DNA of 64,000 nucleotides, from positions 3,446,001 through 3,510,000 of the forward strand of contig CP051232.1 in assembly GCA_017792445.1 (NCBI GenBank). Direction: 5' to 3'. A program made the translations under genes and the position numbers. The notes under the pieces were generated by a model. The model saw only the letters and a list, made by a program, of their open reading frames with translations. It did not search any database and was not told the DNA's origin. This document shows positions 22,405-45,173 of the stretch, one piece after another. Position 1 is the stretch's first letter; every line of letters starts with the position of its first letter. The stretch comes from Maritimibacter sp. (GTDB lineage: Bacteria > Pseudomonadota > Alphaproteobacteria > Rhodobacterales > Rhodobacteraceae).

Positions 22405-22440
22405 GGGCGGCGGGCCACCGCCGCGACTGAATGACGACCC

Positions 22441-29554: not shown

Positions 29555-30811
29555 TCACTGAAGGCCCATCTCGGCTTCAAGCTTCAGGTGCGGATCGAAA
29601 TAGCTGCTGTCGTACTCGTAGCAGTCGCGCACGATCTCGTAGCCGCCCTCGATGATCTTCACCATGTAACCCGCGTGGTTGGGCATGTGGAAATCGGCGT
29701 CACCCACGTAGTAGGGGCCGCACATCAGGTCGCTGGTCTTGCCCTTGATGGCGCGGATCGCGTCGGCGACCTTGGCGCGGTCGTCGACGTCGGCCGGGTC
29801 CATCTCCAGCATCATCTCGGTGAAGAACTTCGCCGACAGGTACCCCGCCTGCGCGAAGGTGTCGCGCGGGTCCTCGGGGCGGGCGTAGGCGTCCATCACC
29901 GCGATCCAGTTCTGCGCGTCCGGTCCGTTCACCTGGAACGGGGCCAGTTCGGCGTTCACGTAGACATCGCCGTGCCAGTACTCGCCGACCTGATCCGGGA
30001 TCGACAGGTCATACAGCGGCGTCGGCGCGATCCAGTTGAACGCGTCGCGCAGGTCCTGCTCTTCGGCGGCCTTCAGGATCGCCAGCGCCAGACCGGCGGG
30101 CTGGTTGATCAGGATGGTGTCCGCGCCCGAACTGACCGCTTCCAGCAGCGCCGAGTTCACGTCCGGCGCGCCGGGGTTGATCAGCGCCATCGAGCCGGTA
30201 CCGCCGTTCTCTTCCATGTAGTTGATCGCCGCCTCGCAGGACCAGATCCCGTTGTTGGGGATGTTCAGGCCGATGCAGGCGATGTTCTCCGCGCCCAGTT
30301 CCTCGCGGGCGTACATCACCGCGCCAAGGTTCGACGGCAGCGGTCCCTGGTTGGTCGAGACGATGTTCGAGCTTTCGAAGCATTCCGAGATCGCGCAGGC
30401 CGAGGCCATCACCATGATGTCCGCCTCGGCATAGGTGCCCGCGTTCACCGCCATCTCGATGAATGACCCGTTGGCGACAAGCGCTACTGTGTCGGTATCG
30501 TTCACCAGCTTCGCGGCGGCCTGCGCGGCAAGCTCGGGATTCCACTGGTCGTTCTCGATGATGTACTCGATGGGCCGGCCGTTGATGCCGCCATTCGCGT
30601 TCACGCAGTCGAAATAGGCTTTCGCGGCATCGGTCGCGGCCGAGAAATCGCCCGGCGCGGCGTTGCCGTGGATGCCGCCGACAAGGATCGGATCGCCCGA
30701 GGCGGCCTCTCCGGTATTCGCGCCGCACATCGGATCGGCGGCAAGCGCCTGACCGCCGGCAGTGACGCCGGCAAGCGTAATGGCAGCGCTAAGCGCTGTT
30801 TTCAGTTTCAT
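29555..30811 (-). CDS. Liv-type ABC transporter substrate-binding protein
   Basis: This 418-residue periplasmic binding protein of type I fold (Peripla_BP_6-like) has the signal peptide MKLKTALSAAITLAGVTAGG..ALA. The first domain opens with DPILVGGIHGNAAPGDFSAATDAAKAYFDCVNANGGINGRPIEYI, the usual order of the amide-urea-amino-acid binding family. Six or so cysteines (CGANT, YFDCV, SACAISEC, ACIG, SCEA, MCGPYY) are more than in LivK and may form disulfides. It is first in the livHMGF-type operon, with GGGAGG before the ATG. Position beside the P450/PpsAB island suggests it binds that pathway's substrate; this is inference. Confidence 0.9.
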   Translation of the reverse strand: MKLKTALSAAITLAGVTAGGQALAADPMCGANTGEAASGDPILVGGIHGNAAPGDFSAATDAAKAYFDCVNANGGINGRPIEYIIENDQWNPELAAQAAAKLVNDTDTVALVANGSFIEMAVNAGTYAEADIMVMASACAISECFESSNIVSTNQGPLPSNLGAVMYAREELGAENIACIGLNIPNNGIWSCEAAINYMEENGGTGSMALINPGAPDVNSALLEAVSSGADTILINQPAGLALAILKAAEEQDLRDAFNWIAPTPLYDLSIPDQVGEYWHGDVYVNAELAPFQVNGPDAQNWIAVMDAYARPEDPRDTFAQAGYLSAKFFTEMMLEMDPADVDDRAKVADAIRAIKGKTSDLMCGPYYVGDADFHMPNHAGYMVKIIEGGYEIVRDCYEYDSSYFDPHLKLEAEMGLQ

Positions 30812-30899
30812 GTCTTTCCTCCCTTTGGACACGTCTTCTTTTGGCTTGCGTTCCGCTGGCGCGTGTCCGTGGCACAAGCGGACAGCCAACGAGGCGGGT

Positions 30900-30947: not shown

Positions 30948-32573
30948 TCATGCGCGCCTCCGGTCTTCGGCGATCATGTCGGCGGCCTTCTCGGCGATCA
31001 TGATCGCGGGGGCGTTGGTGTTGCCCGACACGATCAGCGGCATGATCGACGCGTCGACCACGCGCAGGTTTTCGGTGCCCCGAACCTTGAGGCGCGGGTC
31101 GGTCACCGCGTCGGGACCGGTGCCCATCGCGCAGGTGCCGACCGGGTGATAGACGGTGCGCGCCTGCGCCCGGATATGGGCCCGCAGATCGTCGTCGCTG
31201 GTGGCGGCGTCGCCCGGGACGATCTCGGTCAGCCCGTGGCGCGACAGCGGGTCTTGTCTCAGGATCTGCCGGGCCAGCCGCACGCCTTTCAGCAAGCGTT
31301 CGGTGTCGCGGTCGTCGGCCAGCAGGCCAAGGTCGATCTCCGGCGGACCGTCCGGCGCGACACGTGTCACGCTGCCCCGGCTTTCGGGGCGCAGAACGCA
31401 GGTATGCAGCGACACCCCGTGCCCCCATTCCACCATCCGCCCCCGGTGGCTTTTGCGGCCCGGGATCAGGTGGAACTGCACGTCGGGCCGCGTCTCGGAC
31501 GGGCTGGTTCGCACGAAGCCCCCGGCCTCGACCATGTTCGAGGCGAACATCCCCCGGTGCCGGAACGCCCAGTTCAGGGCCTCGCCCGCCAGCCGTGGCA
31601 ACGCCCGCACCGAGATGCCGTAGGGCGCGGCAGAGCGGCTTTTGCAGATCACCATCACATCCACGTGGTCCTGCAGATTGCGCCCGACGCCGGGTAGATC
31701 GGTGTGAACCTCGCCGCCGAAGGTTTTGATATCGCTGGCCGCACCGATCCCGGATCGCAGCAGCAGGTCCGGAGATCCGATGGCGCCCGCGCACAGGATC
31801 ACCTCGCCCCGCGCGGTGATGCTGTCCGTCGCGCCATCCGCCCCGAAGCCCGCTCCGCGCAACTCGACCCCAACCGCGCGCGCGCCGTCCATCCGCACCC
31901 GCAGCACCTCGGCGCCGGTCACAACGCGCAGGTTCTTGCGCGCCCGCACTGGTTCCAGAAAGGCGGCTGCCGTCGAATGCCGCTCGCCGTCCTTCTGCGT
32001 GACCTGATAGATGCCGACGCCCTCTGGCTCGGGCGCGTTGAAGTCGTCACACCGCCGCAGTTGAAGCCCTGCGGCGGCGGTGGTGAAATCGTGGTCCAGC
32101 CGGCTGGGATCGCGCAGCCGCGTCACCGACAGCGGCCCGTCGCGGCCATGAATCCTGTCGTCCAGCGCCGGGTCGTCGTTCGCCTCGGAGCGCCGGAAAT
32201 AGGGTAGGACGGACTCGTAGTCCCAGCCGGTACACCCAAGCTTTGCCCAGCCGTCGTAGTCGGCCCGGTGCCCCCGGATATAGATCATCCCGTTGATCGC
32301 CGAAGACCCGCCCAGAACCCGTCCGCGCGGCACCGACACGCGCCGCCCGTCCAGCGCGGCCTGCGGGGTCGAGGCGAACAGCCAGTTGTGCCGCCGGTCC
32401 TTCGACAGCCGGATCAGCCCCAGCGGCGTGCGGATCAGCGGCGACAGGTCCGGCGGGCCCGCTTCCAGCAGGCACACGGTGACGGACGGGTCCGCGCTTA
32501 GCCGATTGGCCAAGGTCGCACCCGCCGATCCCGCACCGACGATGACGTAGTCGAACTGGCTGCTGTCCTGCAT
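30948..32573 (-). CDS. GMC-family FAD alcohol/choline dehydrogenase
   Basis: This 541-residue flavoprotein oxidises an alcohol. The FAD loop is YVIVGAGSAGATLANRLS, GMC signature 1 covers RGRVLGGSSAINGMIYIRGH, signature 2 includes AGAIGSPDLLLRSGIG, and the catalytic His region is YHPVGTCAMG followed by NTNAPAIMIAEKAADMI. It is closest in pattern to choline dehydrogenase and alkanol dehydrogenases; no betB or choline gene is near, so choline is not assumed. Start at 32573 (or an ATG four codons earlier with AGGA) fits the family N terminus. It is divergent from the MEDS-SARP regulator gene, sharing a 231-bp control region that holds a palindrome. Confidence 0.9.
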   Translation of the reverse strand: MQDSSQFDYVIVGAGSAGATLANRLSADPSVTVCLLEAGPPDLSPLIRTPLGLIRLSKDRRHNWLFASTPQAALDGRRVSVPRGRVLGGSSAINGMIYIRGHRADYDGWAKLGCTGWDYESVLPYFRRSEANDDPALDDRIHGRDGPLSVTRLRDPSRLDHDFTTAAAGLQLRRCDDFNAPEPEGVGIYQVTQKDGERHSTAAAFLEPVRARKNLRVVTGAEVLRVRMDGARAVGVELRGAGFGADGATDSITARGEVILCAGAIGSPDLLLRSGIGAASDIKTFGGEVHTDLPGVGRNLQDHVDVMVICKSRSAAPYGISVRALPRLAGEALNWAFRHRGMFASNMVEAGGFVRTSPSETRPDVQFHLIPGRKSHRGRMVEWGHGVSLHTCVLRPESRGSVTRVAPDGPPEIDLGLLADDRDTERLLKGVRLARQILRQDPLSRHGLTEIVPGDAATSDDDLRAHIRAQARTVYHPVGTCAMGTGPDAVTDPRLKVRGTENLRVVDASIMPLIVSGNTNAPAIMIAEKAADMIAEDRRRA

Positions 32574-32804: not shown

Positions 32805-34277
32805 ATGAACGAGCGACGTCATGACGGCGTGAACGCGGCACTTGTCTGCGACCTCGGGCAAGAGGCTTTCGTCTCTGCCGCGCTGGCCGCCTTCGACGGT
32901 GCCCTGCTGGTGACCGACGACCCCGGCCTGCTGGCGGGGTTCGAGCGGATCGGCTTCGCGCAGGCATGTCTCGACACCGCCCCCACCGACACCGACCGCG
33001 TCGCCGAGGCGCTGCGCCCGCATCTGCGCGCCGGGCGCGCGTTGGTCTTGGACATGGGCTGGGCGCTGGACCCCGCGATGGGCGCCGGAGCCTTCGATGC
33101 GTGGGGCGCGCTGTCGGAACGCCTTGCCGCCGAGGGCGGGCGCATCGTCTCGCTGTATGACCGCAGCATGTTGATCGAGGACCAACTTCAGGCCGCCGTT
33201 CGGGCGCACGCGCAGTTCGCGGCGCCGTCGGGGCTGCATCCGAACCCGTTCTGGCTGCCTGCCCGGATGCAGGACAGCGGCACGCTGGAGGAACAGCTTG
33301 GCTTCCTGCTGGGCCGCGCGGTGCCGGACTATGCCGTCGAGGCCGAGCAGGGCTTCAACCGCGTCGCCGCGCGCGGGGCGGTGCCCGACTGGCTGGACGG
33401 GCAGCGCCACGTGCAGCCCGCAGGCTACGCCCGCAGCCGCTGGCACATTCTCTGCCTTGGCCCGCTGCGGGTCTACACCGACGGCTATCGACGGGTGGAC
33501 TGGAAACAGCCCGGTGGCAGCCCCCGCAAGACCAAGGCGCTGTTCGCCTATCTCCTGCAAAGCGGCGAGCGTGGCGCACATGCGGACCGCATCTGCGAAC
33601 TGCTCTGGCCCGGTGAGGCGTCCGAGGACACCAAGCGGTCCCGCCTGCACTACGTCGTCGCGATGCTGCGCAAGACGCTGGGCGCAAAGACCGCCGTGCT
33701 GCGCGCGGGCGAGTACTATCGCCTGAACGCCCCCGCCGGCAGTTGGATCGACATCTCCAGCTTCGAACAGCTTTGCCGCCGCGCGGTGACCTTGCAAAGC
33801 CATGGCGACGAGGCGGGCGCGCTGAAGATCCTCGCCGCCGCCGAGCGTCTGTATGGCGGCGACCTGTTCGAGGACCTGCCGCAGGACATCGTCGACCCGG
33901 AACACGAGGACTGGTGCCTGCCCAAGCGGGTCTGGCTGCGCGAGATGGCGCTGAAGGTCCAGCGCGACGCCTCGGTGCTGCTGCGCAAGCAGGGCCGCAA
34001 CCGCGCCGCGCTGGAACATGCCCAGAAGGCGCTGGCACTGGACCCGGTCAGCGAGGTCGCCAATGCCGAGGTGCTGCGTGTGTTCCACGCACAGGGCCGC
34101 GCCGACGCGATGGCACGCCAATACCGCCAGTACCGCGCCGCGCTGGACGCGATGGGCGCCTCGGACGAGGGCGATGGGGTCGAGGCGGTTTACCGCGATC
34201 TGCTGGGCCGGTCTTCCACAACTGGCGGGAAAGAAAAGGAAAAAGCCACCAAAGAAAAACCAAAGGCAGGGATATAA
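32805..34277 (+). CDS. MEDS-sensor / SARP-type transcriptional regulator
   Basis: This 490-residue regulator has three parts. Residues about 8-155 resemble the MEDS (DcmR-type) sensory domain, with VTDDPGLLAGFERIG, VLDMGW, a RIVSLYDRSML segment and a NPFW end. Residues about 212-310 are an OmpR/SARP-like winged helix (LGPLRVYTDGYRRVDW...RKTKALFAYLL...LCELLWP-like region, KRSRLHYVVAMLRKTLG). Residues about 316-465 are a BTAD helical repeat domain. A charged Lys/Glu tail ends the protein. The order sensor-SARP is unusual. It is the first gene of the catabolic operon; the P450 gene starts 42 bases after its stop. GGGGAGCG precedes the ATG. Confidence 0.82.
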   Translation: MNERRHDGVNAALVCDLGQEAFVSAALAAFDGALLVTDDPGLLAGFERIGFAQACLDTAPTDTDRVAEALRPHLRAGRALVLDMGWALDPAMGAGAFDAWGALSERLAAEGGRIVSLYDRSMLIEDQLQAAVRAHAQFAAPSGLHPNPFWLPARMQDSGTLEEQLGFLLGRAVPDYAVEAEQGFNRVAARGAVPDWLDGQRHVQPAGYARSRWHILCLGPLRVYTDGYRRVDWKQPGGSPRKTKALFAYLLQSGERGAHADRICELLWPGEASEDTKRSRLHYVVAMLRKTLGAKTAVLRAGEYYRLNAPAGSWIDISSFEQLCRRAVTLQSHGDEAGALKILAAAERLYGGDLFEDLPQDIVDPEHEDWCLPKRVWLREMALKVQRDASVLLRKQGRNRAALEHAQKALALDPVSEVANAEVLRVFHAQGRADAMARQYRQYRAALDAMGASDEGDGVEAVYRDLLGRSSTTGGKEKEKATKEKPKAGI

Positions 34278-34319
34278 CGTGAGTCGCGAGGCTGAGAATG
34301 CCCCAAGGGAGGACATCTT

Positions 34320-35570
34320 ATGAACGTGCAGGACGACATCCGCGTGGCGGATGGCTACGACCCGTTTGACCTGAACACACCCCATGCCCAGTGGAAGGAA
34401 TTCCGCGAGGACGCGCCGGTCTTCTACCACGAGCCCAGCGGCTACTGGGTCGTATCGCGCTATGATGACATCAAGGCGATCTTCGACGACTGGAAGACGT
34501 TTTCGTCCGAGAATGCCCAGAAGCCGATGCGCCCGATGTGCGAAGAAGGCCGCCAGATCCTGAAAGACGGCGGCTTCACCGCCTATTCCGGCCTCACCGC
34601 CCGCGTGCCGCCCGATCACACCCGCATCCGCTCGGTCGCGCAGGGCTGCTTCGGTCCCCGCCGCTTCAAGTCCATCGCGCCGCAGATCGAAGAGATCGTC
34701 GCCCGCCACCTCGACATGCTGGCCGAGGCCGGCAAGTCCGGCGAAGCGGTGGATTTCTGGGAGATCGTCGCCTATCCGGTGCCCGCCCACGTGCTGTTCA
34801 CGCTGATGGGCATCCCGGAAGAGGACGTGCCGAAGATCAAACAATACGGCGCCAGCCGGGGCAAGATGACGTGGTCCGACCTCACCGACGAGGAAATGAT
34901 CCCGGTCGCGCACGACATGGTAGCCTACTGGAAGTACATCCACGAACTTCTTGATATGCGGCGGGAAAACCCCGGTGACGATTTCCCCTCGGACCTGCTG
35001 CGCCTGCAATCCGAAGGCGCCGAGATCACCGACGAGGAAATCGCGGGCGTACTTTATTCCACGCTGTTCGCGGGTCACGAGACGACCTCGACCTTCATGG
35101 GCAACTACGTCCTCGCGATGATGAACAACCGCGACGCTTGGGAAGAGATCAAAGCGGACCCGTCGAAGATCCCCAACGCGGTGGAAGAGATGCTGCGCTT
35201 CACCCCGTCGGTCGTCGGCTGGCGCCGCAAGGCCCGCACCGCGGCGACCGTCGGCGGCGTGGACCTGCCCGCGGGGGCCGAGATCCTGATGCTGACCGGC
35301 GCGGCCAACCGCGACGACGCGCAGTTTCCCGAAGGCGAAAAGCTGGACATCTCGCGCAAGAACGCCCGCAGCCACCTGAGCTTTGGCTACGGCATTCACT
35401 ACTGCCTTGGGTTCCAGCTGGCGAAGATGGAGGGCCAGGCGCTGCTGCGGCAGCTGTCCGAACGATTCCCGGACCTGACGCTCGCCGATGGGTTCAAGCC
35501 GGAATATCACCGCAACATCACCTTTCGGGTGCCGACAAGCGTGATGGTGAAACTGGAGGGGGGTGCATGA
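34320..35570 (+). CDS. Cytochrome P450 monooxygenase (bacterial class I)
   Basis: This soluble 416-residue P450 inserts oxygen into an unactivated C-H bond, with electrons from a ferredoxin. The haem ligand is Cys362 in FGYGIHYCLGFQLAKME, the I-helix oxygen-activation motif is AGHETT at 251-256, and the K-helix E-x-x-R is Glu290-Arg293 in VEEMLRF. A [2Fe-2S] ferredoxin gene ends the same operon, a fitting redox partner; no ferredoxin reductase gene is in the window. GGGAGGACATCTT precedes the ATG. It overlaps the PpsB-like gene by ATGA. The subfamily is not assigned here, so the substrate stays unknown. Confidence 0.95.
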   Translation: MNVQDDIRVADGYDPFDLNTPHAQWKEFREDAPVFYHEPSGYWVVSRYDDIKAIFDDWKTFSSENAQKPMRPMCEEGRQILKDGGFTAYSGLTARVPPDHTRIRSVAQGCFGPRRFKSIAPQIEEIVARHLDMLAEAGKSGEAVDFWEIVAYPVPAHVLFTLMGIPEEDVPKIKQYGASRGKMTWSDLTDEEMIPVAHDMVAYWKYIHELLDMRRENPGDDFPSDLLRLQSEGAEITDEEIAGVLYSTLFAGHETTSTFMGNYVLAMMNNRDAWEEIKADPSKIPNAVEEMLRFTPSVVGWRRKARTAATVGGVDLPAGAEILMLTGAANRDDAQFPEGEKLDISRKNARSHLSFGYGIHYCLGFQLAKMEGQALLRQLSERFPDLTLADGFKPEYHRNITFRVPTSVMVKLEGGA

Positions 35571-36634
35571 GCGAAGACCTGTACACCGTAGAATTCAATA
35601 AGGTCGGCGCGGGCGATCTGCCCCGCGTCGGCGGCAAGTGCGCCTCGCTCGGAGAGATGACGCAGGCCGGTGTCGCGGTGCCTCCGGGCTTCGCGGTGAC
35701 CACCGACGCCTATGCCGCGATGCTGGATCACCACGGCCTGCGCGCCGAGATCAAGCGCCACCTCGAAGGCGTCGACCCCGACGACATCGACGCGGTCGAC
35801 CGCGCGGCGCAGGCGATCCGCATCCGCATCCGCTCGCACAAGCTGCCCGAGGACGTAGAGACCGCGATCCGCGCCGCCTATGCCGAGATGGGCGACGACA
35901 TGCCGGTCGCCGTGCGCTCGTCCGCCACCGCCGAGGACCTGCCCGACGCCAGCTTCGCAGGCCAACAGGACACCTACCTGTGGGTCCGGGGTGCGGACTC
36001 GGTCGTGTACCGGGTGCGCGACTGCTGGGCGTCGCTTTATACGACGCGGGCGGTGGCCTACCGGACCAAGAACGAGATCCCGCACGAGGACGTGCTGATG
36101 AGCGTCGGCGTGCAGAAGATGGTCAACGCCCGCGCCGCCGGGGTGGCGATGACGCTCGACCCCTGCAACGGCGACCGCACCCGGATCGTCATCGACGCAA
36201 GCTGGGGGCTGGGCGAGATGGTCGTGTCGGGCGTCGTGACGCCGGACAACTTCGTGGTCGAGAAGATCCTCGAGGAAGTGCTCGACCGCAAGATCTCGGA
36301 CAAGCACGTCGAACTGGTGGGCGACGCCGAGGCCGGAGAGGCGGTCGAACGCGAGATCACCGACGAACGCCGGAACACGTCCTGCCTGACCGACGCCGAG
36401 GTGCTGGCCGTCGCAAGGCTCGCCAAGCGTCTGGAAAAGCAGAACAAGTGCCCGCAGGACGTGGAGTGGGCGATCGACGCCGACCTGCCGGACGGCGAGA
36501 ACCTTCTGGCGCTGCAATCGCGGCCCGAAACCATCTGGTCGCAGAAGAAGGCCGAGAAGCCCAAGTCAAGCTACGGGCTTGGCATGATGGGCATCGTCAA
36601 CACGCTGAACAATCCGCTGGGCACGCGGTCCTGA
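35567..36634 (+). CDS. PEP-synthase ATP-binding-domain protein (PpsB-like subunit)
   Basis: This 355-residue protein equals the N-terminal nucleotide-binding half of PEP synthase as a separate chain. Motifs in order are VGGKCASLGEMTQAGVAVPPGFA, VRSSATAEDLPDASFAGQQDTYL (Arg117), the RDCWASLYTTRAVAYR helix, the GLGEMVVSGVVTPDNFVV strand, and the closing LLALQSRPETIWS. It should bind ATP and phosphorylate the histidine of the partner protein encoded next. Its size matches the 40-kDa subunit of phenylphosphate synthase of anaerobic phenol degraders. It overlaps the P450 stop. Whether the alcohol, enol or ketone of the P450 product is the acceptor cannot be read from sequence. Confidence 0.88.
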   Translation: MSEDLYTVEFNKVGAGDLPRVGGKCASLGEMTQAGVAVPPGFAVTTDAYAAMLDHHGLRAEIKRHLEGVDPDDIDAVDRAAQAIRIRIRSHKLPEDVETAIRAAYAEMGDDMPVAVRSSATAEDLPDASFAGQQDTYLWVRGADSVVYRVRDCWASLYTTRAVAYRTKNEIPHEDVLMSVGVQKMVNARAAGVAMTLDPCNGDRTRIVIDASWGLGEMVVSGVVTPDNFVVEKILEEVLDRKISDKHVELVGDAEAGEAVEREITDERRNTSCLTDAEVLAVARLAKRLEKQNKCPQDVEWAIDADLPDGENLLALQSRPETIWSQKKAEKPKSSYGLGMMGIVNTLNNPLGTRS

Positions 36635-36679
36635 GGAGGGGACCCGCGCCACAGCAACTTAAGGGAGGAAGACAGACTA

Positions 36680-38491
36680 ATGGACGCCACCACGCCGCTT
36701 TTCCCAAGCGCCTTCGACGTGCAGCCCCCGAAGGGCGCCGAGGACTGGAAAAGCATCTACCCCTATTACGTGCAGTTCAATCCCAAGCGGCGGCAGGCCG
36801 AGGACGGCAAGTTCTGGTTCTGCAACAGCCAGCATTGGCCGACGCCGTTCCGGCCCTTCGATCTGATCATGGTCGACTTCGCCACCAAGTGCCTTGGCCA
36901 GTACAACACCCGTCACCTGCTGGTGCCGCCCGCGAACGGGATCGATTACCGCATCCTGAACGGCTACGTCTATTTCGCCCCCATCGCGGTGGAGCCCAGC
37001 CAGATCGAGGCGCGGATTCCGCAGTTCCTCGAACGGGCGGGGCATTACTACCAGAACTGGGACAGCCTGCTGGCGAACTGGAAGACCAAGGTTCAGGGCG
37101 CCGTGGCCGAGCTTGAAAAGCTCAGCTTCGACGACCTGCCCGACGTGGTCCCGCTGGAGTGGGTGACCGGCGGCAAGGGGCTCGACAACACCACCGACCT
37201 GATGAAGGCCTATGACGATGCGATCATGCTTTGCTATCGCATCTGGCAGTATCACTTCGAGTTCCTGAACCTCGGATACGCCGCCTATCTCGACTTCTTC
37301 GGGTTCATGAAGGAACAGATCCCCTCGATCCCAGATCAGGCCATCGCCAAGATGGTGCAGGGCGTCGACAGCGAACTGTTCCGCCCCGACGACGAGCTGA
37401 AAAAGCTGTCGCGGCTGGCCGTAGAACTGGGCGTCGCCGACGCGCTGAAATCCGGCACCGTCGACGAGGCGCTGGCCGCCGTGAAAGCGCAGCCGAAGGG
37501 CGCCGAGTGGATCGCCGCGTGGGAGACCGCGCAGGATCCGTGGTTCAACTTCACCTCGGGCAACGGCTTTTATTCCGCCGACAAGTACTGGAACGAGCAT
37601 CTCGACATCCCGCTTGGCTACCTGCGCGACTACATCGAGCGCGTCGAGGCCGGCGAGACAATCGAACGCCCGACCGAGAAGCTGCTGACCGAGCGTGACC
37701 GCATCACGTCCGAATACCGCGACATGATGGACCCCGAGGCGCAGGAGGTCTTCGACCAGAAGCTCGGCCTGTCCCGCACCGTGTTCCCCTATGTGGAAGA
37801 CCACAACTTCTACATCGAGCATTGGTCGCTGGGCGTGTTCTGGCGGAAGATGCGCGAACTGGCCGCGCTGTTCGTCCGCAACGGGTTCTTCGAGAACGCC
37901 GACGACATGTTCTACTTCCACCGCAACGAGGTGCGCGACATCCTGTGGGACTACTGCTCGGGCTGGGGCACCGGCGCCGAATGGCAGGGGCCCAGCTATC
38001 TGTCGGACGAGGTCGGCCGCCGCAAGGAGATCATGGGCGCGCTGGCATCAGAACCGCCGCTTCCGGCACTGAACAACCCGCCCGAGGTGATCACCGAGCC
38101 GTTCACGATCATGCTGTTCGGCATCACCAGCGAGTCGATCCAGAAATGGGTGGGCGCCAAGGAAGACGGCGCAGGTCTCAGCGGCATGGCCGCCGCGCCC
38201 GGCGTGGTCGAAGGCGTGGCGCGGGTGCTGCGCAGCCCCGACCAGCTGACCGAGCTGGAAAAGGGCGACATCCTCGTCACCCCCGTCACCGCGCCCAGCT
38301 GGGCCCCGGTGTTCGGCAAGATCAGCGCGGCGGTCACCGACATCGGCGGCATGATGAGCCACGCGGCCATCGTCTGCCGCGAATACGGCCTGCCTGCGGT
38401 CACCGGCACCGGCAACGCCTCGTCCCGGATCAAGACCGGGATGCGGCTGCGGGTCGACGGCAACAAGGGCACGGTCGAGGTCATCGACTGA
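36680..38491 (+). CDS. PEP-utilising phosphohistidine-domain protein (PpsA-like subunit)
   Basis: This 603-residue partner has a long helical and mixed N-terminal part (about 1-500) and a C-terminal swivelling phosphohistidine domain (about 510-603). The domain carries GDILVTPVTAPSWAPVF, the carrier His561 in GGMMSHAAIVCREYGLPAV, and the terminal LRVDGNKGTVEV. In phenylphosphate synthase the 70-kDa subunit has this make-up and transfers the phosphate to phenol. The N-terminal part resembles the acceptor-binding part of such enzymes (YFAPIAVEPSQIEARIPQFLERAGHYY). GGGAGGAAG precedes the ATG. No third, CBS-domain subunit is present. Substrate is unknown; rifamycin-phosphotransferase-like chemistry is the other precedent. 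Confidence 0.86.
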   Translation: MDATTPLFPSAFDVQPPKGAEDWKSIYPYYVQFNPKRRQAEDGKFWFCNSQHWPTPFRPFDLIMVDFATKCLGQYNTRHLLVPPANGIDYRILNGYVYFAPIAVEPSQIEARIPQFLERAGHYYQNWDSLLANWKTKVQGAVAELEKLSFDDLPDVVPLEWVTGGKGLDNTTDLMKAYDDAIMLCYRIWQYHFEFLNLGYAAYLDFFGFMKEQIPSIPDQAIAKMVQGVDSELFRPDDELKKLSRLAVELGVADALKSGTVDEALAAVKAQPKGAEWIAAWETAQDPWFNFTSGNGFYSADKYWNEHLDIPLGYLRDYIERVEAGETIERPTEKLLTERDRITSEYRDMMDPEAQEVFDQKLGLSRTVFPYVEDHNFYIEHWSLGVFWRKMRELAALFVRNGFFENADDMFYFHRNEVRDILWDYCSGWGTGAEWQGPSYLSDEVGRRKEIMGALASEPPLPALNNPPEVITEPFTIMLFGITSESIQKWVGAKEDGAGLSGMAAAPGVVEGVARVLRSPDQLTELEKGDILVTPVTAPSWAPVFGKISAAVTDIGGMMSHAAIVCREYGLPAVTGTGNASSRIKTGMRLRVDGNKGTVEVID

Positions 38492-38554
38492 TCCAACCGC
38501 CGGGGGGCGTGGTCCCCCGGCGTCGCCTCCCTCCGGGACGGTCGCAAGGCGTGT

Positions 38555-38588
38555 GCCTCCGGCGGGGATATTTTCGGTCAGAAGAAGC
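38555..38588 (+). repeat. Relative of the dispersed repeat (diverged)
   Basis: GCCTCCGGCGGGGATATTTT, six bases, AGAAGAAG. It keeps the layout of the elements at 6329 and 16442 (GC-rich block, tATTT core, short spacer, AGAAGAAG end) but not their sequence in detail. It lies between the PpsA-like gene and the first HD gene, inside the operon. Confidence 0.5.
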
Positions 38589-38603
38589 GGGGAACGGCGC
38601 GCG

Positions 38604-39206
38604 ATGCAGGTGCTGGCGGAAGACGTGCGGCTTGATCCGGTGTGGCGGCGGGCAGAGCCCTACATGCGGGCGCGCAAGAACGACGTCCACATCCCGCTGT
38701 CGTTCCAATGGTGCCGCCGCCTGCTGGCCAAGCACCCCGAGGCCGACGCCGAGATCTGCCTGCTGGCGATCCTGCTGCACGACATCGGCTGGTTTGCCAT
38801 CGACATGGACGAGATCGTCGCGCAGGGCTTCCGGTCCGAGAACTTCCTGACCTCGGACGTCCGCTATCGCCACGAGGCCGAGGGCGTGCGGCTGGCCCGC
38901 GAGGTTCTGGCCGACTGCGGCTATGGCGACAACGTGATCGGCGCGGTCTGCGAGATCATCGACGGGCACGACACCCGGCCCGAGCCGCATCACCTGAACG
39001 ACCGCATCGTGCGGGATGCCGACAAGCTGTGGCGCTACGAGGTGGCGGGCATCGCGGTGGCGGTCGACTGGTTCGGCATCACGCCATCGGCCTATGCCGA
39101 CCAGATCGAGGGCGAGCTGGCGCGGTTTGAAACGGAAGCCGGCCGCGCGATGGCCGAGGCGGAACTCGCGATCACCCGCGACCGCCTGATGCTGCACGTG
39201 ATCTGA
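38604..39206 (+). CDS. HD-domain protein with six metal ligands, first paralogue
   Basis: This 200-residue all-helical HD protein has candidate metal ligands His29, His59-Asp60 (AILLHDIGW), His90 (RYRHEAEG), His122 (IIDGHDT) and Asp138 or Asp140 (RDADK). A six-ligand set like this can hold a di-metal site, as in myo-inositol oxygenase and PhnZ oxygenases or in di-metal HD phosphohydrolases. It could therefore cleave a phosphate ester made by the PpsAB-like enzyme, or oxidise a C-H or C-C bond. It is paralogous to the HD protein encoded after the aldehyde dehydrogenase. The ATG at 38604 follows GGGGAACG. Exact activity unknown. Confidence 0.85.
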   Translation: MQVLAEDVRLDPVWRRAEPYMRARKNDVHIPLSFQWCRRLLAKHPEADAEICLLAILLHDIGWFAIDMDEIVAQGFRSENFLTSDVRYRHEAEGVRLAREVLADCGYGDNVIGAVCEIIDGHDTRPEPHHLNDRIVRDADKLWRYEVAGIAVAVDWFGITPSAYADQIEGELARFETEAGRAMAEAELAITRDRLMLHVI

Positions 39207-39218
39207 GGAGCGGACGGG

Positions 39219-40655
39219 ATGGAGATGTTCGTCGGCGGGAAATGGGTCAGCGGCTCGGGCGCGCGGATGCCGGTGACCGACCCCCGCAGCGGTGCCGAGG
39301 TCGACACGGTGCCCGAGGGCGGCGCGGCAGAGGCCTGCGCGGCGGTGGTGTCGGCGGCGGCGGCCTTCGAGGACTGGCGGCAGGTGCCGATGGCCGAACG
39401 CGTCCGGGTCGTGAAGGCTTGCGCGACGGCGATGCGCGACGCGGCGGCCGAGGTGGGCGCGCTGCTCAACCGCGAACTCGGGCGGCCGCTTGCCGCCTGC
39501 ACCGGAGAGATCGCGCGCTCGGCGGATCTTCTGGACATCTATGCCGAGGAAGGACTGCGCCTTCAGGCGACGATGGCGCTTGGGTCCGGCGCGGGCGAGA
39601 AGACGGTGGTCACCCGCGACCCGGTGGGCGTGGTGGTGGCGATCACCCCGTTCAACTATCCCGTCACGCTGTTGATGTTCAAACTCGGCGCGGCGCTGGT
39701 GGCGGGCTGCACGGTGGTCGCCAAACCCGCCGAGGACACGCCCCTGTCGACGCTGAAACTGGCCGAATTGTTCCACGCGGCGGGGCTTCCGGCGGGCTGT
39801 TTCAACGTGGTTACCGGCACCGGTCGCGGCATCGGGGCGGCGCTGGTCGAACATCCGGTGCCCCGCAAGGTCGCCTTCACCGGCGGCACGGCGGCGGGCA
39901 AGGCCATCGCCGCCGCCGCGATGGGAACGCTGAAGCGGGTGACGCTGGAACTGGGCGGTCAGAGCGCCGCAATCGTCTGTGCCGACGCCGATCTCGAAAA
40001 GGCCGCCAGCGCCATCGTGCGGCACGGCTTCGCGAACTCGGGGCAGTTCTGCTATCGGGTGAACAGGGTCTATGCCCACCGCGCAATCTATGAACCGCTT
40101 CTTGACCTGATGCGGGAAAAGGCCCGGGCGCTGACCATGGCGCCCGCCGGCGGCGAGGGCGATCTGGGCCCGATGGTGAACGAGAAGATCTTCGCCAACT
40201 CGGTGCTTCAGTCCGACGACGCCCGCGCGAAGGGCGCGCGCATCCTGACCGGCGGCGCACGGGTGACCGGCGACGGCTTCGACGGCGGCTTCTACTTCCC
40301 GCCGACCCTGATCGCCGACGCCACCCACGACATGCTGATCCTCACCGAAGAAACCTTCGGCCCGGTCATCGGAGTCTGCCCGGTCGACGGTCCTTTCGAG
40401 GCGCTGCGCCACGCCAACGCCAGCCGCTACGGGCTTGCGGGTTTCGTCTTCGCCCGCGACCTCGCGCTGGGGCTGACGCTGTGCGAGCGGATGGAGGCCG
40501 GGTCGGTCTGGCTCAACGACATTCAACGCTCGTCCCACCACGTGCCGTTCGGCGGCATGAAGCAAAGCGGCCTGGGTCGCGAGAAGGGGCGTTACGGGGT
40601 CGAGAGCTACCTCGAATACAAGACGATGTATCTGAGCTACGAGGTGCCGACATGA
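39219..40655 (+). CDS. NAD(P)+-dependent aldehyde dehydrogenase
   Basis: This 478-residue cytoplasmic enzyme oxidises an aldehyde to the acid or acyl product. The cofactor site includes ITPFNYPVTLLMFKLGAAL and FTGGTAAGK, the general base Glu is in LELGGQSA, and the catalytic nucleophile is Cys278 in NSGQFCYRVNR. The EETFGPV motif and SHHVPFGGMKQSGLGREKG are intact. It lies between two paralogous HD genes in the P450 operon and overlaps the second by ATGA, a tight arrangement that implies consecutive or balanced action. GAGGAGCGG precedes the ATG. The substrate is likely an aldehyde of the same pathway; nothing narrows it further. Confidence 0.92.
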   Translation: MEMFVGGKWVSGSGARMPVTDPRSGAEVDTVPEGGAAEACAAVVSAAAAFEDWRQVPMAERVRVVKACATAMRDAAAEVGALLNRELGRPLAACTGEIARSADLLDIYAEEGLRLQATMALGSGAGEKTVVTRDPVGVVVAITPFNYPVTLLMFKLGAALVAGCTVVAKPAEDTPLSTLKLAELFHAAGLPAGCFNVVTGTGRGIGAALVEHPVPRKVAFTGGTAAGKAIAAAAMGTLKRVTLELGGQSAAIVCADADLEKAASAIVRHGFANSGQFCYRVNRVYAHRAIYEPLLDLMREKARALTMAPAGGEGDLGPMVNEKIFANSVLQSDDARAKGARILTGGARVTGDGFDGGFYFPPTLIADATHDMLILTEETFGPVIGVCPVDGPFEALRHANASRYGLAGFVFARDLALGLTLCERMEAGSVWLNDIQRSSHHVPFGGMKQSGLGREKGRYGVESYLEYKTMYLSYEVPT

Positions 40656-41257
40656 GCGACGATGCCGTCTTCCTGCCCCGCGACCTGCCGCTGTGGCAGG
40701 ATGCGAAACCCTATCTGGACGTGCGCAACAACGACGAACACACCATCGTCGCCTACGGGCTGGCAAGGGCGCTGCTGGACCAGATCCCCGAGGCCGATCC
40801 GGCCGTGGTCTTGCCTGCCGTGGTGCTGCACGACGTCGGCTGGAAAAAGATCGACCCGGCGCATCTGCTGGACGCCATCGACAAGAAACCGGGCTTTGAA
40901 CACCTCGTCCGCGAGCACGAGATCCACGGCGTGCAGATCGCCCGCGAGATCCTGCGGCGCCACCGGCCCGAGGGCGTCGATATCGAGGCGGTGCTGGCGA
41001 TCATCGACGGGCACGACACCACCAGGCACGCGCGCTCGATCAACGACGCGGTGATGAAGGACGCCGACAAGGGCTGGCGCGCGACCCTGCACGGGGTGCG
41101 TACGATCTCGGCCTGGTACGGTTGGTCGCTGCCGGAATTCTTCGACATGCTCGAAACCCGCTCGAACCCCAACATGCTGACCCCGCAGGGACGGGCGCTG
41201 GCCGAGGGGATCACGGCGGCGGCAAGGGCGGAACTGCAGATCGGGAGATACTTGTGA
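40652..41257 (+). CDS. HD-domain protein with six metal ligands, second paralogue
   Basis: This 201-residue HD protein is homologous to the one at 38604-39206. Candidate ligands are His30 (NNDEHTI), His60-Asp61 (VVLHDVGWKKID), His89 (REHEIHG), His121 (IIDGHDTTRHARS) and Asp137 or Asp139 (KDADKGW). Spacing of ligands is the same as in its paralogue, so both bind metal alike but may differ in substrate. The N terminus adds about 10 residues. It overlaps the aldehyde dehydrogenase (ATGA) and the following SDR (GTGA), so all three are translationally coupled. Phosphohydrolase or di-iron oxygenase are both possible. Confidence 0.85.
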   Translation: MSDDAVFLPRDLPLWQDAKPYLDVRNNDEHTIVAYGLARALLDQIPEADPAVVLPAVVLHDVGWKKIDPAHLLDAIDKKPGFEHLVREHEIHGVQIAREILRRHRPEGVDIEAVLAIIDGHDTTRHARSINDAVMKDADKGWRATLHGVRTISAWYGWSLPEFFDMLETRSNPNMLTPQGRALAEGITAAARAELQIGRYL

Positions 41258-41985
41258 CGGATCTTGGACTTGCCGGAAAACGCGTCGTCGTGACCGGGGC
41301 CGCGGGCGGATTGGGCCGCGCCTTCGCGCTGGCCTTCGCCGGGGCGGGCGCCACGGTGCTGGCCGCCGACATCGACGAGGCAGGGGCCGCGGAAACCGCG
41401 CGCAGGGCGGGCGGCACGGCTGCGAAGGTGGACGTGACGGACACCGAAAGCTGCCGCGCGCTGGCCAGGGTGGCGGGCGCGGTGGACGTGCTGGTGAACA
41501 ACGCGGCGCTGTATGCCGGTCTGCCGCGCGGGCCCTTCGAGGATCTGGACGAGGGGCTGTGGGACAAGGTCATGGCGGTCAACGTCAAGGGCGTCTGGCA
41601 GATGACCCGCGCCTTCTCGGATGCCCTGCGGGCCTCGTCCGGGGCGGTGGTCAACGTCGCCTCGGCGACGGTGTTCTCGGGCTCGCCGCAATGGATGCAC
41701 TACGTCGCCTCGAAGGGCGCGGTGATCGCGATGAGCCGGGTGATGGCCAAGGAGATGGGCGGCGACGGGGTGCGGGTGAACGTGCTTGCGCCCGGCTTCA
41801 CCCTGACCGAGGCGAGCTATGGCCACATGGCCGACGCCAAGGGCTACGGCGCCGACCGCGCCGCGCTGAAACGCAATGCAGAGGTCGAGGACATCACCGG
41901 CGCGGCGCTGTATCTCGCGTCGCCGCTGGCGGGGTTCATGACCGGGCAGACGATGGTCGTCGACGGCGGCAAGCAGTTCATCTGA
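41254..41985 (+). CDS. SDR-family oxidoreductase of the P450 operon
   Basis: This 243-residue short-chain dehydrogenase has TGAAGGLGRAFALAFAGAG at the cofactor site, Asp after strand two (LAADIDEAG, favouring NAD+), VNNAALYAG, and catalytic Tyr and Lys in MHYVASKGAV. SGSPQWMHY is the substrate-loop side. It likely oxidises a secondary alcohol or reduces a ketone in the pathway. The start is a GTG at 41254 that overlaps the HD stop (GTGA) with CGGGAGAT upstream; an earlier frame start would sit inside the HD gene. A ferredoxin gene follows after 13 bases. Confidence 0.9.
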   Translation: MTDLGLAGKRVVVTGAAGGLGRAFALAFAGAGATVLAADIDEAGAAETARRAGGTAAKVDVTDTESCRALARVAGAVDVLVNNAALYAGLPRGPFEDLDEGLWDKVMAVNVKGVWQMTRAFSDALRASSGAVVNVASATVFSGSPQWMHYVASKGAVIAMSRVMAKEMGGDGVRVNVLAPGFTLTEASYGHMADAKGYGADRAALKRNAEVEDITGAALYLASPLAGFMTGQTMVVDGGKQFI

Positions 41986-41998
41986 GGAGAGACAGGCA

Positions 41999-42319
41999 AT
42001 GGTACAGGTGGTCTTCATCGAGCAGGACGGCACCCGCCGCGAGGTCGACGCGGTCGAGGGCGAACCGCTGATGTACGCCGCACGCGGCGCGGGGGTCGAG
42101 GGGATCATCGCGGAATGCGGTGGCTCGGCCATGTGCGCGACCTGCCACTGTTACGTGGTCGACGCGCCCGACGGCGTGCTGCCGCCGCCCGAGCCGCAGG
42201 AAGCGGACACCATCGAGTTCATGGCGCACGAGCCGCAGGACAACTCGCGGCTGCCCTGCCAGATCAAGGCGACCGCCGCGATGGAGGGGCTGGTGCTGCA
42301 GGTCGCGACCGGGCGCTAG
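41999..42319 (+). CDS. [2Fe-2S] ferredoxin, adrenodoxin/putidaredoxin type
   Basis: This 106-residue ferredoxin has cluster ligands Cys40, Cys46, Cys49 and Cys87 (C-x5-C-x2-C-x37-C). An additional Cys51 follows in CATCHCYV, and the LPCQI ending is typical of P450-supporting ferredoxins. It is acidic overall. Being the last gene of the operon opened by the P450, it is the likely electron donor to that P450. The reductase must be encoded elsewhere. GGAGAGACAGG precedes the ATG. A palindromic terminator follows 15 bases after the stop. Confidence 0.94.
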   Translation: MVQVVFIEQDGTRREVDAVEGEPLMYAARGAGVEGIIAECGGSAMCATCHCYVVDAPDGVLPPPEPQEADTIEFMAHEPQDNSRLPCQIKATAAMEGLVLQVATGR

Positions 42320-42333: not shown

Positions 42334-42356
42334 ACGATCTTCCGGAAGATCGTTTC
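42334..42356. terminator. Terminator between the two converging operons
   Basis: A perfect 20-bp palindrome (ACGATCTTCC joined to GGAAGATCGT) is followed by TTTC. It lies between the ferredoxin stop and the minus-strand SDR stop, and can serve both strands, although the T run is short. Confidence 0.6.
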
Positions 42357-42387: not shown

Positions 42388-43152
42388 CTACCGTGCGAGG
42401 ACGCCGCCATCGACCACCAGCGTGGTGCCGGTGACGAAGTCCGACGCGGCAGAGCACAGGTAGATCAGCGACCCCGCGATCTCGTCGGCTTCCGCGATGC
42501 GTCCCATCGGGGTGTAGCGGCGGAAAGAGTCCGCCTGCGCGTTGGTCGAGGGGCGCGTCTCGGTCCGGAAGAAGCCGGGGCAAAGCGCGTTTACCTGAAT
42601 GCCATGTGGGGCGTATTCCACCGCCAGTTCCCGCGTCAGGTTCACCACCGCGCCCTTCGACGCCGCATAGGCGGGGCGCGGTTGCAGTCCGGCAGGTGCG
42701 GACAGGCCCCACATCGACGCGACGGTGACGATCTTGCCACGACCGCGGGGCAGCATCTGACCAAGCGCCGCGCGGCAGGTGTGGAAGGTGCCGGTCAGGT
42801 TGACGTCCAACGTGCGCTGCCAGCCCTCGGTGCCGGTCCGGTGCGCCAGAGTGCGGTCCGGGTCCGAGATGCCCGCGTTGCAGACGGCGATGTCGAGGGG
42901 ACCGAACGCCTTGACCGTGCGATCGACCGCGTCGGTGACGGCGGCTTCGTCGGTGACGTCTCCGGTCAGCGCCAGCGCCTCGGGACCAAGCGCGTCCACC
43001 GTCGCGGTCAGCGCCTTGGCGTCCGCGTCGAAACATCCGACCCGCGCGCCGTTCTGGACCAGCGCCGTGACCATCGCGCGGCCCAGCCCCTGCGCCGCGC
43101 CGGTGACGAAGGCCACCCGGCCCTCGACGCCGAAAAGCGCCGTCAGGCTCAT
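42388..43152 (-). CDS. SDR-family oxidoreductase (3-hydroxyacyl/hydroxybutyrate type)
   Basis: This 254-residue short-chain dehydrogenase has TGAAQGLGRAMVTALVQNGA, Asp after strand two (CFDADAKA), CNAGISDPDR, and catalytic Tyr-Lys in PAYAASKGAVVNL, with the usual FVTGTTLVVDGG end. It is the last gene of the minus-strand operon and overlaps the acetoacetyl-CoA synthetase start by four bases. Coupling with that enzyme suggests it makes acetoacetate or a 3-oxo acid from the 3-hydroxy compound, as 3-hydroxybutyrate dehydrogenase does. This is inference from context; generic SDR is the safe call. Confidence 0.88.
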   Translation of the reverse strand: MSLTALFGVEGRVAFVTGAAQGLGRAMVTALVQNGARVGCFDADAKALTATVDALGPEALALTGDVTDEAAVTDAVDRTVKAFGPLDIAVCNAGISDPDRTLAHRTGTEGWQRTLDVNLTGTFHTCRAALGQMLPRGRGKIVTVASMWGLSAPAGLQPRPAYAASKGAVVNLTRELAVEYAPHGIQVNALCPGFFRTETRPSTNAQADSFRRYTPMGRIAEADEIAGSLIYLCSAASDFVTGTTLVVDGGVLAR

Positions 43153-45173
43153 CCCCGGCGGGCCGCCGCGAAGGCGGCGAACCAGTCAAGCGCACCGGGG
43201 TTCTTGGTGGCGTCGCGGCTGGCCACCTTGTCGGGCGGATCGCCCAGCAGCAGCTTGCGCACCGGAACTTCCATCTTCTTGCCGGTCAGCGTCGCCGGGA
43301 TCTCGGGGGCCTCGACCACTTCGTCGGGGACGTGGCGGGGGCTGCGTTCGGACCTGAGGCGGCGGGCGATGTCCTTTTTCAGGTCGTCGGTGAGGCTATG
43401 ACCCTCGGCCATCTGGACGAACAGCGGCATGTAATAGCCGCCGTCGGCCTCCTCGATGCAGACGATCAGGCTGTCGGCGATCTCGGGGAAGGTTTCCATC
43501 GTGCGGTAGATCTCGGCAGAGCCGATACGGACGCCGAAGCGGTTCAGCGTGGCGTCGGACCGGCCGAGGACGAAGGCGCCGCCGTGGGCGTTGAACTTCA
43601 CCCGGTCGCCATGGCGCCAGAGGCCGGGGTAGGTGTCGAAGTAGCTGTCGGTGTAGCGCGCGAAATCGTCGTCGCCCCAGAAGAACAGCGGCATCGATGG
43701 CATCGGCGTCTCGATCACCAACTCGCCCACCTCGTCGACAACGGGCTGGCCGTCTTCGGAATAGGCGCGGGCGGCGGTGCCAAGGCCGGGCGCCTGAATT
43801 TCGCCCGCGCGGGTCGGAAGCAGGGGAGAGCCCGCAAGGATGCCGGAACAGAATTCGGTGCCGCCGGATTGCGAACTGGCCCAGATGTCCGTGCCGATTG
43901 CCTCGTAGGCCCAGGCGAAGGTTTCGGGGGTCGAAGGGGAGCCCACCAGCATCACCGACTGCAGCGCCGAGAGATCAAAGTCGCGGCCCGGCACGATGCC
44001 CTGCTGGCGCACCATCTGGATGTAGGTGGGGCTGACCCCCATCACCGAGGCATTCGTCTCTGCCGCGATGCGCCACAGAAGTTTCGCATCCGGATAGGCC
44101 GGGTGCCCGTCATACAGCACCGCGCGGGCGTTCATCAGCGGACCCCACATCAGCGTGTTCCAGACCATCCAGCCGGTCGTGGAGTAGAAGAACAACGCGC
44201 CGCCCTCTGCGATCTCGAAATGGAAGGCGGCGGATTTGTAGTGTTCCAGAACGATGCCGTGGTGGCCTTGCACGATGGGTTTCGGCAGGCCGGTGGTGCC
44301 CGACGAGAACAGCACCCACAGCGGGTGATCCGAAGCCACGCGTTCATAGACGAACCCCTCGCGCGGGACCTCGGGGCGGTTGAGGATCGTCTCCCAAGTA
44401 ATTGTTTCGCGCGCGAAACAAGTTAACGGGGCGTTAAGATATCCAAGCGACACCACGCGCTCGACGGTCGGCAGCGCGTCGAGGATACGGGTCAGGTCGG
44501 CAGAGCGGTCATAGTCCTTGCCGCCATAGCGGTAGCCGTCGACGGTGAAGATCAGCTTCGGTTCGATCTGGCTGAACCGGTCGATCACCGTCTGCGCGCC
44601 GAACTCGGGCGCGGCCGACGACCACGTGGCGCCGATGGCGGTGGTGGCGAGCATCGCGATCACCGCCTCGGGGATGTTCGGCATGTAGGCCACCACGCGG
44701 TCGCCGGGGCCGATGCCCATCTCGCGCATCGCGGTCGCCAGCTTGCGGACGGATGCGCCGACCTCGGCCCAGCTGATCGCCGCCTGCGGGCGGATCTCGC
44801 TGGAGTGGTGCAGCATCGGGCGGTCGGGGTCGCCGGTAGTCTCGTGGCGCAGCACGTGCTCGGCATAGTTCAGGCGGGTGCCGGTGAACCAGCGGGTGCG
44901 CGGCATCGGGTCGGCGGTCATCACCGCGTCGATCTCGCCGTCGTGGAGGATCTCGAAGTGGTCCCAGATGGATTTCCAGAACGCCGCCGGATCGTCCACC
45001 GACCACTGCCACAGATCCCAATAGCCATCGAACCTGCGGTTCCGTTCGGCGAGCCAGTCCATGTAGCCGGTGATGTTCGACTGTGACAGGCGCTCGGGAC
45101 CGGCCTGCCAGAGGATGTCGCCCTCTGCGACCGGGGCGGTTTCGGTCGCGGTATTGGTCTCGGTATCGGTCAT
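43149..45173 (-). CDS. Acetoacetate--CoA ligase
   Basis: This 674-residue adenylate-forming ligase activates acetoacetate (or a close 3-oxo acid) to the CoA thioester with ATP. The length and the N-terminal LSQSNITGYMDWLAERN region fit acetoacetyl-CoA synthetase rather than acetyl-CoA synthetase. The P-loop is VLFSSGTTGLPKPIVQG, and the adenylate-binding segments STTGWMVWNTLMWG and LWRHGDRVKFNAHGG are present. The late Lys is in LTGKKMEVPVRKLLLG. The ATG at 45173 overlaps the HAD stop. Its place directly after a biotin-carboxylase system makes a carboxylation product such as acetoacetate a tempting substrate source. Confidence 0.93.
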   Translation of the reverse strand: MTDTETNTATETAPVAEGDILWQAGPERLSQSNITGYMDWLAERNRRFDGYWDLWQWSVDDPAAFWKSIWDHFEILHDGEIDAVMTADPMPRTRWFTGTRLNYAEHVLRHETTGDPDRPMLHHSSEIRPQAAISWAEVGASVRKLATAMREMGIGPGDRVVAYMPNIPEAVIAMLATTAIGATWSSAAPEFGAQTVIDRFSQIEPKLIFTVDGYRYGGKDYDRSADLTRILDALPTVERVVSLGYLNAPLTCFARETITWETILNRPEVPREGFVYERVASDHPLWVLFSSGTTGLPKPIVQGHHGIVLEHYKSAAFHFEIAEGGALFFYSTTGWMVWNTLMWGPLMNARAVLYDGHPAYPDAKLLWRIAAETNASVMGVSPTYIQMVRQQGIVPGRDFDLSALQSVMLVGSPSTPETFAWAYEAIGTDIWASSQSGGTEFCSGILAGSPLLPTRAGEIQAPGLGTAARAYSEDGQPVVDEVGELVIETPMPSMPLFFWGDDDFARYTDSYFDTYPGLWRHGDRVKFNAHGGAFVLGRSDATLNRFGVRIGSAEIYRTMETFPEIADSLIVCIEEADGGYYMPLFVQMAEGHSLTDDLKKDIARRLRSERSPRHVPDEVVEAPEIPATLTGKKMEVPVRKLLLGDPPDKVASRDATKNPGALDWFAAFAAARRG

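Follow-up and report, generated by a model that had tools for sequence, protein, structure and literature searches.

A predicted Cre-type alkylphenol operon of Maritimibacter and the carboxylase module that converges on it

What does an operon that unites a cytochrome P450 with a split kinase resembling phosphoenolpyruvate (PEP) synthase do for its host? This question is raised by nine genes at positions 32805-42319 of a 64,000-nucleotide stretch of Maritimibacter sp. DNA (assembly GCA_017792445.1, contig CP051232.1, positions 3,446,001 to 3,510,000), referred to as the window herein. An initial annotation had proposed an undescribed catabolic pathway in which the P450 makes an alcohol that the kinase then phosphorylates. 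Our analysis points instead to the Cre alkylphenol pathway in an alphaproteobacterial version, a reading that we hold at a probability of about 0.85. It was built on homology, synteny, intact motifs, clade membership and co-occurrence, from which all of the reactions and the substrate class are inferred.

The operon opens with a BTAD/SARP-type regulator (32805-34277; PF03704, 59.6 bits) whose N terminus has a weak MEDS-like Pfam match of 18.1 bits, below the MEDS cut-off. Next come a CreJ-family P450 (34320-35570) and the two chains of a dikinase, namely a CreI-like ATP-grasp chain (35567-36634; PF01326) and a CreH-like substrate-binding and swivel chain (36680-38491; NF006150). The remaining genes encode a CreD-like HD phosphohydrolase (HD1, 38604-39206), an aldehyde dehydrogenase (ALDH) at the CreC position (39219-40655), a second HD phosphohydrolase-like protein (HD2, 40652-41257), a CreG-like short-chain dehydrogenase/reductase (SDR) of the alcohol dehydrogenase type (41254-41985) and a CreF-like 2Fe-2S ferredoxin (41999-42319; PF00111). 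Pfam matches back the naming of each gene, and all nine lie on the + strand as the initial annotation had it, with the overlaps it described at 35567 (ATGA), 40652 (ATGA) and 41254 (GTGA); gaps of 42, 45, 112, 12 and 13 bases separate the genes at the other junctions. The single terminator that it had placed at the end of the operon did not hold up. A terminator consensus scan listed none at the 3′ end, and the perfect 20-nucleotide palindrome that we read from the sequence at 42334-42353 is followed by just two T, making it a possible weak terminator. Motifs were intact in the P450 (heme loop FGYGIHYCLG), the CreH-like chain (swivel-His motif TDIGGMMSH), the ALDH (FANSGQFC and LELGG), the SDR (YVASK) and the ferredoxin (CGGSAMCATC).

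To see how the operon is distributed, we used 198 genomes of the family and 398 of the phylum, with the Maritimibacter genome itself in both samples. Strong CreH matches were found in nine family genomes and four phylum genomes, own genome included. The order regulator-P450-CreI-CreH-HD1-ALDH-HD2-SDR was kept in all eight of the other CreH-bearing family genomes, seven of which also have the ferredoxin. Since this order is the same in every one of them, the arrangement is not due to chance, and the operon is real and conserved. The other three phylum genomes carry CreH and CreI with hpe-like genes adjoining, and no P450 was found within 19.5 kb. We also ran a scan with an alignment of the P450, taking the best 80 loci of at least 557 relatives. 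Among these 80, 53 had a high-scoring P450 (>306.5 bits), and both kinase chains were present in 51 of the 53, three of them with a CreH fragment only (L039, L068 and L071, the first two cut by a contig end); another locus, L036, ends inside CreI at a contig end, and the last, L069, has no kinase gene. Two of the 27 lower-scoring loci belong to the family by identity (L081, with a split P450 match and the operon present, and L104, at a contig end). In the other 25, with P450s of 30-40% identity, no kinase gene occurred in the locus read, and some of these loci are short. The conserved co-occurrence that the initial annotation had named as a check is therefore borne out, both by gene order in the family and by the kinase pair in the P450 loci. 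Two layouts recur among the 80 loci. Layout A, that of the window with its BTAD gene, accounts for 22 loci in Rhodobacterales, Hyphomicrobiales and Bacteroidota (two of them, L018 and L027, apparently from one genome), while layout B is the actinobacterial cre order.

We then considered the kinase pair. The CreH-like chain scored 996 bits against NCBIfam NF006150 (cut-off 650), a family whose product name is still hypothetical, and the best PDB chain for the CreI-like chain was 9goj. Against the PEP synthase model TIGR01418 the two chains reached 366.9 and 101.4 bits with a cut-off of 739.75, and neither attained any PEP-synthase cut-off. The size split is that of phenylphosphate synthase, HpeHI and CreHI. 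In TDIGGMMSH, a Met takes the position of the regulatory Thr of PEP synthases and a Ser precedes the His, as stated for CreH and PpsA in PMC12167813. A CreH tree separated P450-linked rows from seven rows lacking a P450, which are ppc-linked, carboxylase-linked or other, with a value of 100 in the Shimodaira-Hasegawa-like approximate likelihood ratio test; the window CreH falls in the P450-linked clade. This tree, made by a quick method, used 58 of 70 rows with near-copies dropped and long branches flagged. By family score, missed PEP-synthase cut-offs and tree position, the pair is a two-chain dikinase of the phenylphosphate-synthase type rather than a PEP synthase, and the identification made in the initial annotation stands.

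Evidence from the P450 pointed to the same system. It matched PDB chains 5gwe, 5xjn and 7ccf at 424 bits, with the next chain at 246, and when we submitted its predicted structure (predicted local distance difference test score, pLDDT, 88.6) to Foldseek, ranks 1-4 were all CREJ entries. The title of 5xjn describes CREJ complexed with (4-ethylphenyl) dihydrogen phosphate. For a direct comparison we took locus L141 as the cre locus of Corynebacterium glutamicum. Its P450 matches the CREJ chain of 5gwe with 100% identity over 396 amino acids, and its gene order, P450-CreI-CreH-SDR-ferredoxin-ferredoxin reductase-HD-ALDH, agrees with the cre table of PMC7764795; the reductase is the open reading frame (ORF) between ferredoxin and HD, named after that table. 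Identities of the window proteins to those of L141 were 48% for the P450, 53% for CreI, 58% for CreH, 54% for the SDR, 43% for the ferredoxin, 42% for HD1 (compared with the HD protein encoded in place of creD) and 39% for the ALDH. According to PMC7764795, the creC-creJ genes of C. glutamicum include a benzaldehyde dehydrogenase, a phosphohydrolase and an alcohol dehydrogenase, with CreE, CreF and CreJ as subunits of the P450 system and CreH and CreI as kinase subunits. The Cre system begins by phosphorylating the phenol (PMC12167813, PMC7764795 and PMC9549646). The window thus shares with the 4-cresol pathway creJIHGFEDC of C. glutamicum homologous P450, kinases, SDR, ferredoxin, HD and ALDH (39-58%) and a kinase of the same clade. 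It differs in gene order beyond CreH, in having no reductase gene and a more distant ALDH, and in its extra HD2, BTAD regulator and carboxylase module alongside. By homology, then, the principle of the operon is already known, and the initial annotation was wrong to regard an aerobic route combining a P450 with phosphorylation as unknown, since the cre operon of C. glutamicum is one.

These comparisons also bear on the order of the steps and on other uses of the kinase. The order originally proposed, with the P450 making an alcohol and the kinase then phosphorylating an aliphatic alcohol or an enol, is permitted by gene content alone, and the P450 gene does come first. However, the kinase belongs with CreHI and the P450 with CreJ, and the CreJ structure was solved with an aryl phosphate; we take CreJ itself to act on such a phosphate, which goes beyond the title of 5xjn. 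We therefore consider the alcohol-first order improbable and its sequence of steps probably wrong. Because the P450 and both kinase chains are homologous to CreJ, CreI and CreH and 5xjn holds an aryl phosphate, the first step is most probably taken by the kinase, on the phenolic hydroxyl, and the P450 then oxidizes the aryl phosphate. Even less weight, indeed almost none, goes to the idea that the two chains form a genuine PEP synthase or act on an antibiotic as rifampin phosphotransferase does. Both of those enzymes share the ATP-grasp and swivel domains, but Pfam finds no PEP-synthase C-terminal domain in the kinase chains, the larger chain has a PRK08296-type substrate domain and the synteny is catabolic; both readings were rejected by domain content and cut-offs.

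Several observations weigh against the Cre reading. Within the readable part of the C. glutamicum locus nothing corresponds to the regulator or to HD2, and the ALDH, which stands beside HD1, is only 39% identical to CreC. No ferredoxin reductase (CreE/FdR) match was found in the window at E 1e-10. Locus L071 holds only a CreH fragment although it continues past that point, and L069 (Klenkia soli) has a CreJ-family P450 with no kinase gene in the locus. In the latter, at about 8.5-11.2 kb, the P450 is accompanied by HD2 and by an ORF judged IclR-like on visual inspection. As for the reductase, a CreE-like gene was present in every one of the 41 layout-B loci with a linked P450 and in nine of the 22 layout-A loci, where it sits directly after the ferredoxin or SDR gene; some of the 13 layout-A loci without it end at a contig end. 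It was not found in the loci of the window's nearest relatives. Elsewhere in its own genome, Maritimibacter has CreE-like homologues, the best two 39-40% identical.

In trees, HD1 and HD2 formed separate clades and the layout-B ALDHs lay on one side of a branch. As each HD clade holds members of both layouts (the layout-A HD2 group with support 77), both proteins are old partners of cre loci; HD2 occurs in 34 of the 53 high-scoring P450 loci. HD1 keeps the conserved residues of the HD motif. The His and Asp of the HD site, which have ligand roles, are retained in HD2, but several residues fixed in HD1 are missing from it. Its predicted structure has an HD fold (pLDDT 95.6) and its nearest PDB folds are HD hydrolases, with no PDB match at E ≤ 0.001. 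The conserved His/Asp set, which we assume to be comparable with that of PhnZ, gave rise to the idea of a PhnZ/MIOX-like oxygenase. This idea was rejected, as the 50 PDB folds listed, all of them weak, are headed by HD hydrolases and include none named MIOX or PhnZ, and a phosphohydrolase is our preferred prediction for HD2.

On the Cre reading, the CreI- and CreH-like chains would phosphorylate the hydroxyl of an alkylphenol, with the swivel His passing on the β-phosphate of ATP. The CreJ-type P450 would then oxidize the alkyl carbon of the aryl phosphate with electrons from the 2Fe-2S ferredoxin, supplied through a reductase presumably encoded elsewhere. The SDR and ALDH would oxidize the resulting alcohol and aldehyde, and HD1 would take off the phosphate. 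The predicted product, 4-hydroxybenzoate, would pass through PobA into 4,5-type protocatechuate cleavage, both likewise encoded elsewhere. The genome holds two PobA over cut-off and two LigA. At about 3126000-3137600 of the genome (G000:C1), pobA has a ligA nearby (∼4 kb), and the second ligA has an equal score. No PcaH over cut-off was found in the genome, where the one PF00775 match scored 57.8 bits. Ring cleavage by the β-ketoadipate route was accordingly rejected in favor of the LigA type, even though PcaD adjoins one PobA.

The initial annotation overlooked a carboxylase set next to the operon, and the coupling of such a set to a Cre operon is what is specific here. Converging on the operon from the - strand is one run of genes for a biotin carboxyl carrier protein (BCCP, 48915-49388; biotinyl motif EVMKL), a biotin carboxylase (BC, 47561-48913; NF006367, 607 bits, cut-off 597), a carboxyltransferase (CT) of the Hpe/Xcc type (46095-47564; PF02436, PF00682), an HpeD-like HAD phosphatase (45170-46003; PF13344, PF13242), an HpeE-like acyl-coenzyme A (CoA) ligase resembling acetoacetate-CoA ligase (43149-45173; NF002937, 850 bits, cut-off 639) and, last, a second SDR found by SDR models (SDR2, 42388-43152). 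BCCP, BC, CT, HAD and ligase make up an Hpe/Xcc-type set. No kinase gene adjoins it, and just one full-length relative of CreH occurs in the genome. On a Rhizobium plasmid (L115) and a Rhodococcus plasmid, the module's genes other than SDR2 follow a CreHI-like pair of their own; identities of the window module to L115 were 64% for BC, 63% for CT, 58% for the ligase, 42% for HAD and 46% for BCCP.

We therefore asked where this module occurs. A close CT (71-100%) was found in six of the 198 family genomes (G000, the window's own, G034, G097, G153, G165 and G178), all six among the nine CreH genomes, an overlap whose chance would be 1.1e-9 if the genomes, the same set in both searches, were independent. 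They are also the genomes whose P450 is 79.6-83.9% identical to that of the window (or is the window's own). The three CreH genomes with a 56-60% P450 gave no CT at E 1e-80, one of them (G146) being 83% complete. In another four genomes a 36-38% CT accompanies BC, and no HAD, ligase or BCCP was found within about 1.5 kb. The whole module is beside the operon in G097 and G178. In other layout-A loci it was absent beside the operon in the flanks read, some of them short. Module-linked P450s occupy one side of a branch (seven rows, support 100), and across eight such rows they have fixed residues that the other 58 kinase-linked P450s lack or seldom have. The fixation of residues among kinase-linked P450s may stem from shared ancestry, and we do not claim such residues as phosphate ligands. 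Since among the 198 family genomes a close CT is confined to CreH genomes with this P450 subclade, the pattern suggests a functional link in which the kinase product feeds the carboxylase.

From this pattern we arrived at a composite aerobic route in which the same kinase also feeds the kinase-less Hpe/Xcc module, a tentative proposal to which we give just under even odds. A 4-alkylphenol such as 4-ethylphenol would be phosphorylated and converted by the P450 into an aryl ketone phosphate, which would be carboxylated, dephosphorylated, activated with CoA and cleaved to the level of 4-hydroxybenzoate. Oxidation of the ethyl side chain to the ketone before carboxylation is likely the task of the P450; in naming 4-ethylphenol as substrate we are guessing from 5xjn and from the EbN1 p-ethylphenol cluster (PMC4630880). 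Other observations speak against such a route. Genomes are not independent, and kinship inflates the co-occurrence of CT and CreH. No HpeF lies in the module run, and elsewhere it was not searched for. The operon of G165 has the rest of the module beside it and no ligase, and the module of G034, SDR2 included, is ∼51 kb from its operon. G153 has SDR2, HAD and a weak CT beside the operon, and another of its contigs carries ligase, CT, BC and BCCP along with an HAD split into two pieces. In L026 (Pararhodobacter), ligase, HAD and the start of CT run beside the operon up to the end of the locus, and SDR2 was not found there. The CreH of G146 (L020), a genome in which no CT was found, groups with the module-linked rows, the ALDH tree needs two changes to accommodate those rows, and the P450 tree is the only one that follows module presence. 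It is a real though somewhat lesser possibility that the operon is a plain one for 4-cresol or another methylphenol and that the module is independent and shares only the neighborhood. The ALDH and HD1 would suit the conversion of a methyl to a carboxyl group known from C. glutamicum, and in the flanks read the module is missing from layout-A relatives outside the subclade. Yet a close CT is confined to CreH genomes among the 198 searched even when unlinked, the Maritimibacter genome has one full-length kinase of the CreH family, and the module-linked P450s branch together with their distinctive residues. Carboxylase sets apart from a kinase are not rare, since kinase and carboxylase genes shared a common cluster in just 52 of 836 survey cases (PMC13101465).

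Parts of the composite route resemble other known systems. The Hpe and Acv pathways for 4-hydroxyacetophenone and acetovanillone (hpeHICBADEF of Rhodococcus rhodochrous GD02; acvABCDEF of Sphingobium SYK-6) likewise have BCCP, BC, CT, HAD and CoA ligase in one run, and L115 and L151 match the window in set and order. The module corresponds to the gene set of hpeCBADE in PMC9618137, where the labels (HpeB carboxyltransferase, HpeA biotin carboxylase) give an order swapped relative to the window, L115 and L151. In contrast to Hpe, the window module has no kinase of its own and no HpeF in the run, and it stands alongside a Cre-clade kinase and a P450. The anaerobic p-ethylphenol genes of Aromatoleum aromaticum EbN1 (pchF, hped, xcc, acsA) follow the logic proposed here from ethyl group to ketone with an SDR, an Xcc carboxylase and a ligase, a comparison of pathway logic and not of sequences. 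The EbN1 hydroxylase is an oxygen-independent flavin enzyme, whereas the window has a P450. PpsAB phenylphosphate synthase of Thauera/Azoarcus is a two-chain dikinase with the same size split, and the window CreH is 46% identical to an Azoarcus plasmid homologue beside ppc genes. PpsAB-type kinases nevertheless fall outside the Cre clade, and ppc carboxylase genes, present in L116, were absent among the window ORFs scanned.

We further examined 27 loci for joined reading frames and found P450 and CreI in one stop-free frame in seven (L048, L125, L065 of Cryobacterium aureum, L128, L130, L131 and L132). These represent six distinct places, as L048 and L125 are one place in Rhodococcus tukisamuensis (frame at L048:9947-12310); among the other 20 loci, L113 and L126 are apparently one place. 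With 15-35 residues between the aligned parts, these frames are candidates for natural P450-kinase fusions. If made as one protein, such a frame would directly support a partnership of kinase and P450. In the literature searched, we found neither a joint CreHI-P450-carboxylase route nor a P450-kinase fusion, the primary Cre and EbN1 papers, the MarK survey and supplements lying outside its coverage. On two Rhodococcus plasmids (L113 and L114), cre operons have genes annotated as toluene-4-monooxygenase close by, an arrangement that would suit a path from toluene through 4-cresol into Cre; the two plasmid loci have an IclR regulator where the window has BTAD.

Upstream of the operon, on the - strand, are a GMC (choline-dehydrogenase-like) oxidoreductase (30948-32573; NF002550, 550 bits, below the cut-off of 605) and, by domain matches, a Liv-type ABC transporter (26080-30889) with binding protein, LivH, fused LivMG and LivF. 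The oxidoreductase is beside the operon in L015-L020, L026 and L027, the transporter in L015-L020 and L027 with locus extensions included, and SDR2 in L015, L016, L018, L019 and L027. Farther away, at 20725-24263, a sulfide:quinone-reductase-like protein (203 bits, under its cut-off) adjoins SulP-type sulfate permease genes.

Alkylphenols are lignin products and pollutants, and, judging by the loci described here, the C. glutamicum strategy of phosphate tagging seems to be distributed across Alphaproteobacteria, Bacteroidota and Actinobacteria. Why the catabolism of such phenols begins with phosphorylation is posed as an open question in PMC12167813. The Maritimibacter locus names a testable link between two pathways described apart, and the combination of kinase, P450 and carboxylase may be an undescribed aerobic way to degrade alkylphenols. 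Concrete enzymes to examine, also with biocatalysis in view, are offered by this subclade of P450s, by HD2 and by the candidate fusion frames of P450 and kinase. If the composite route is true, one phosphate tag could serve both the P450 and the carboxylase, and the route would be an aerobic, phosphate-tagged counterpart of the anaerobic p-ethylphenol route of EbN1, with a specialized P450 subclade of its own.

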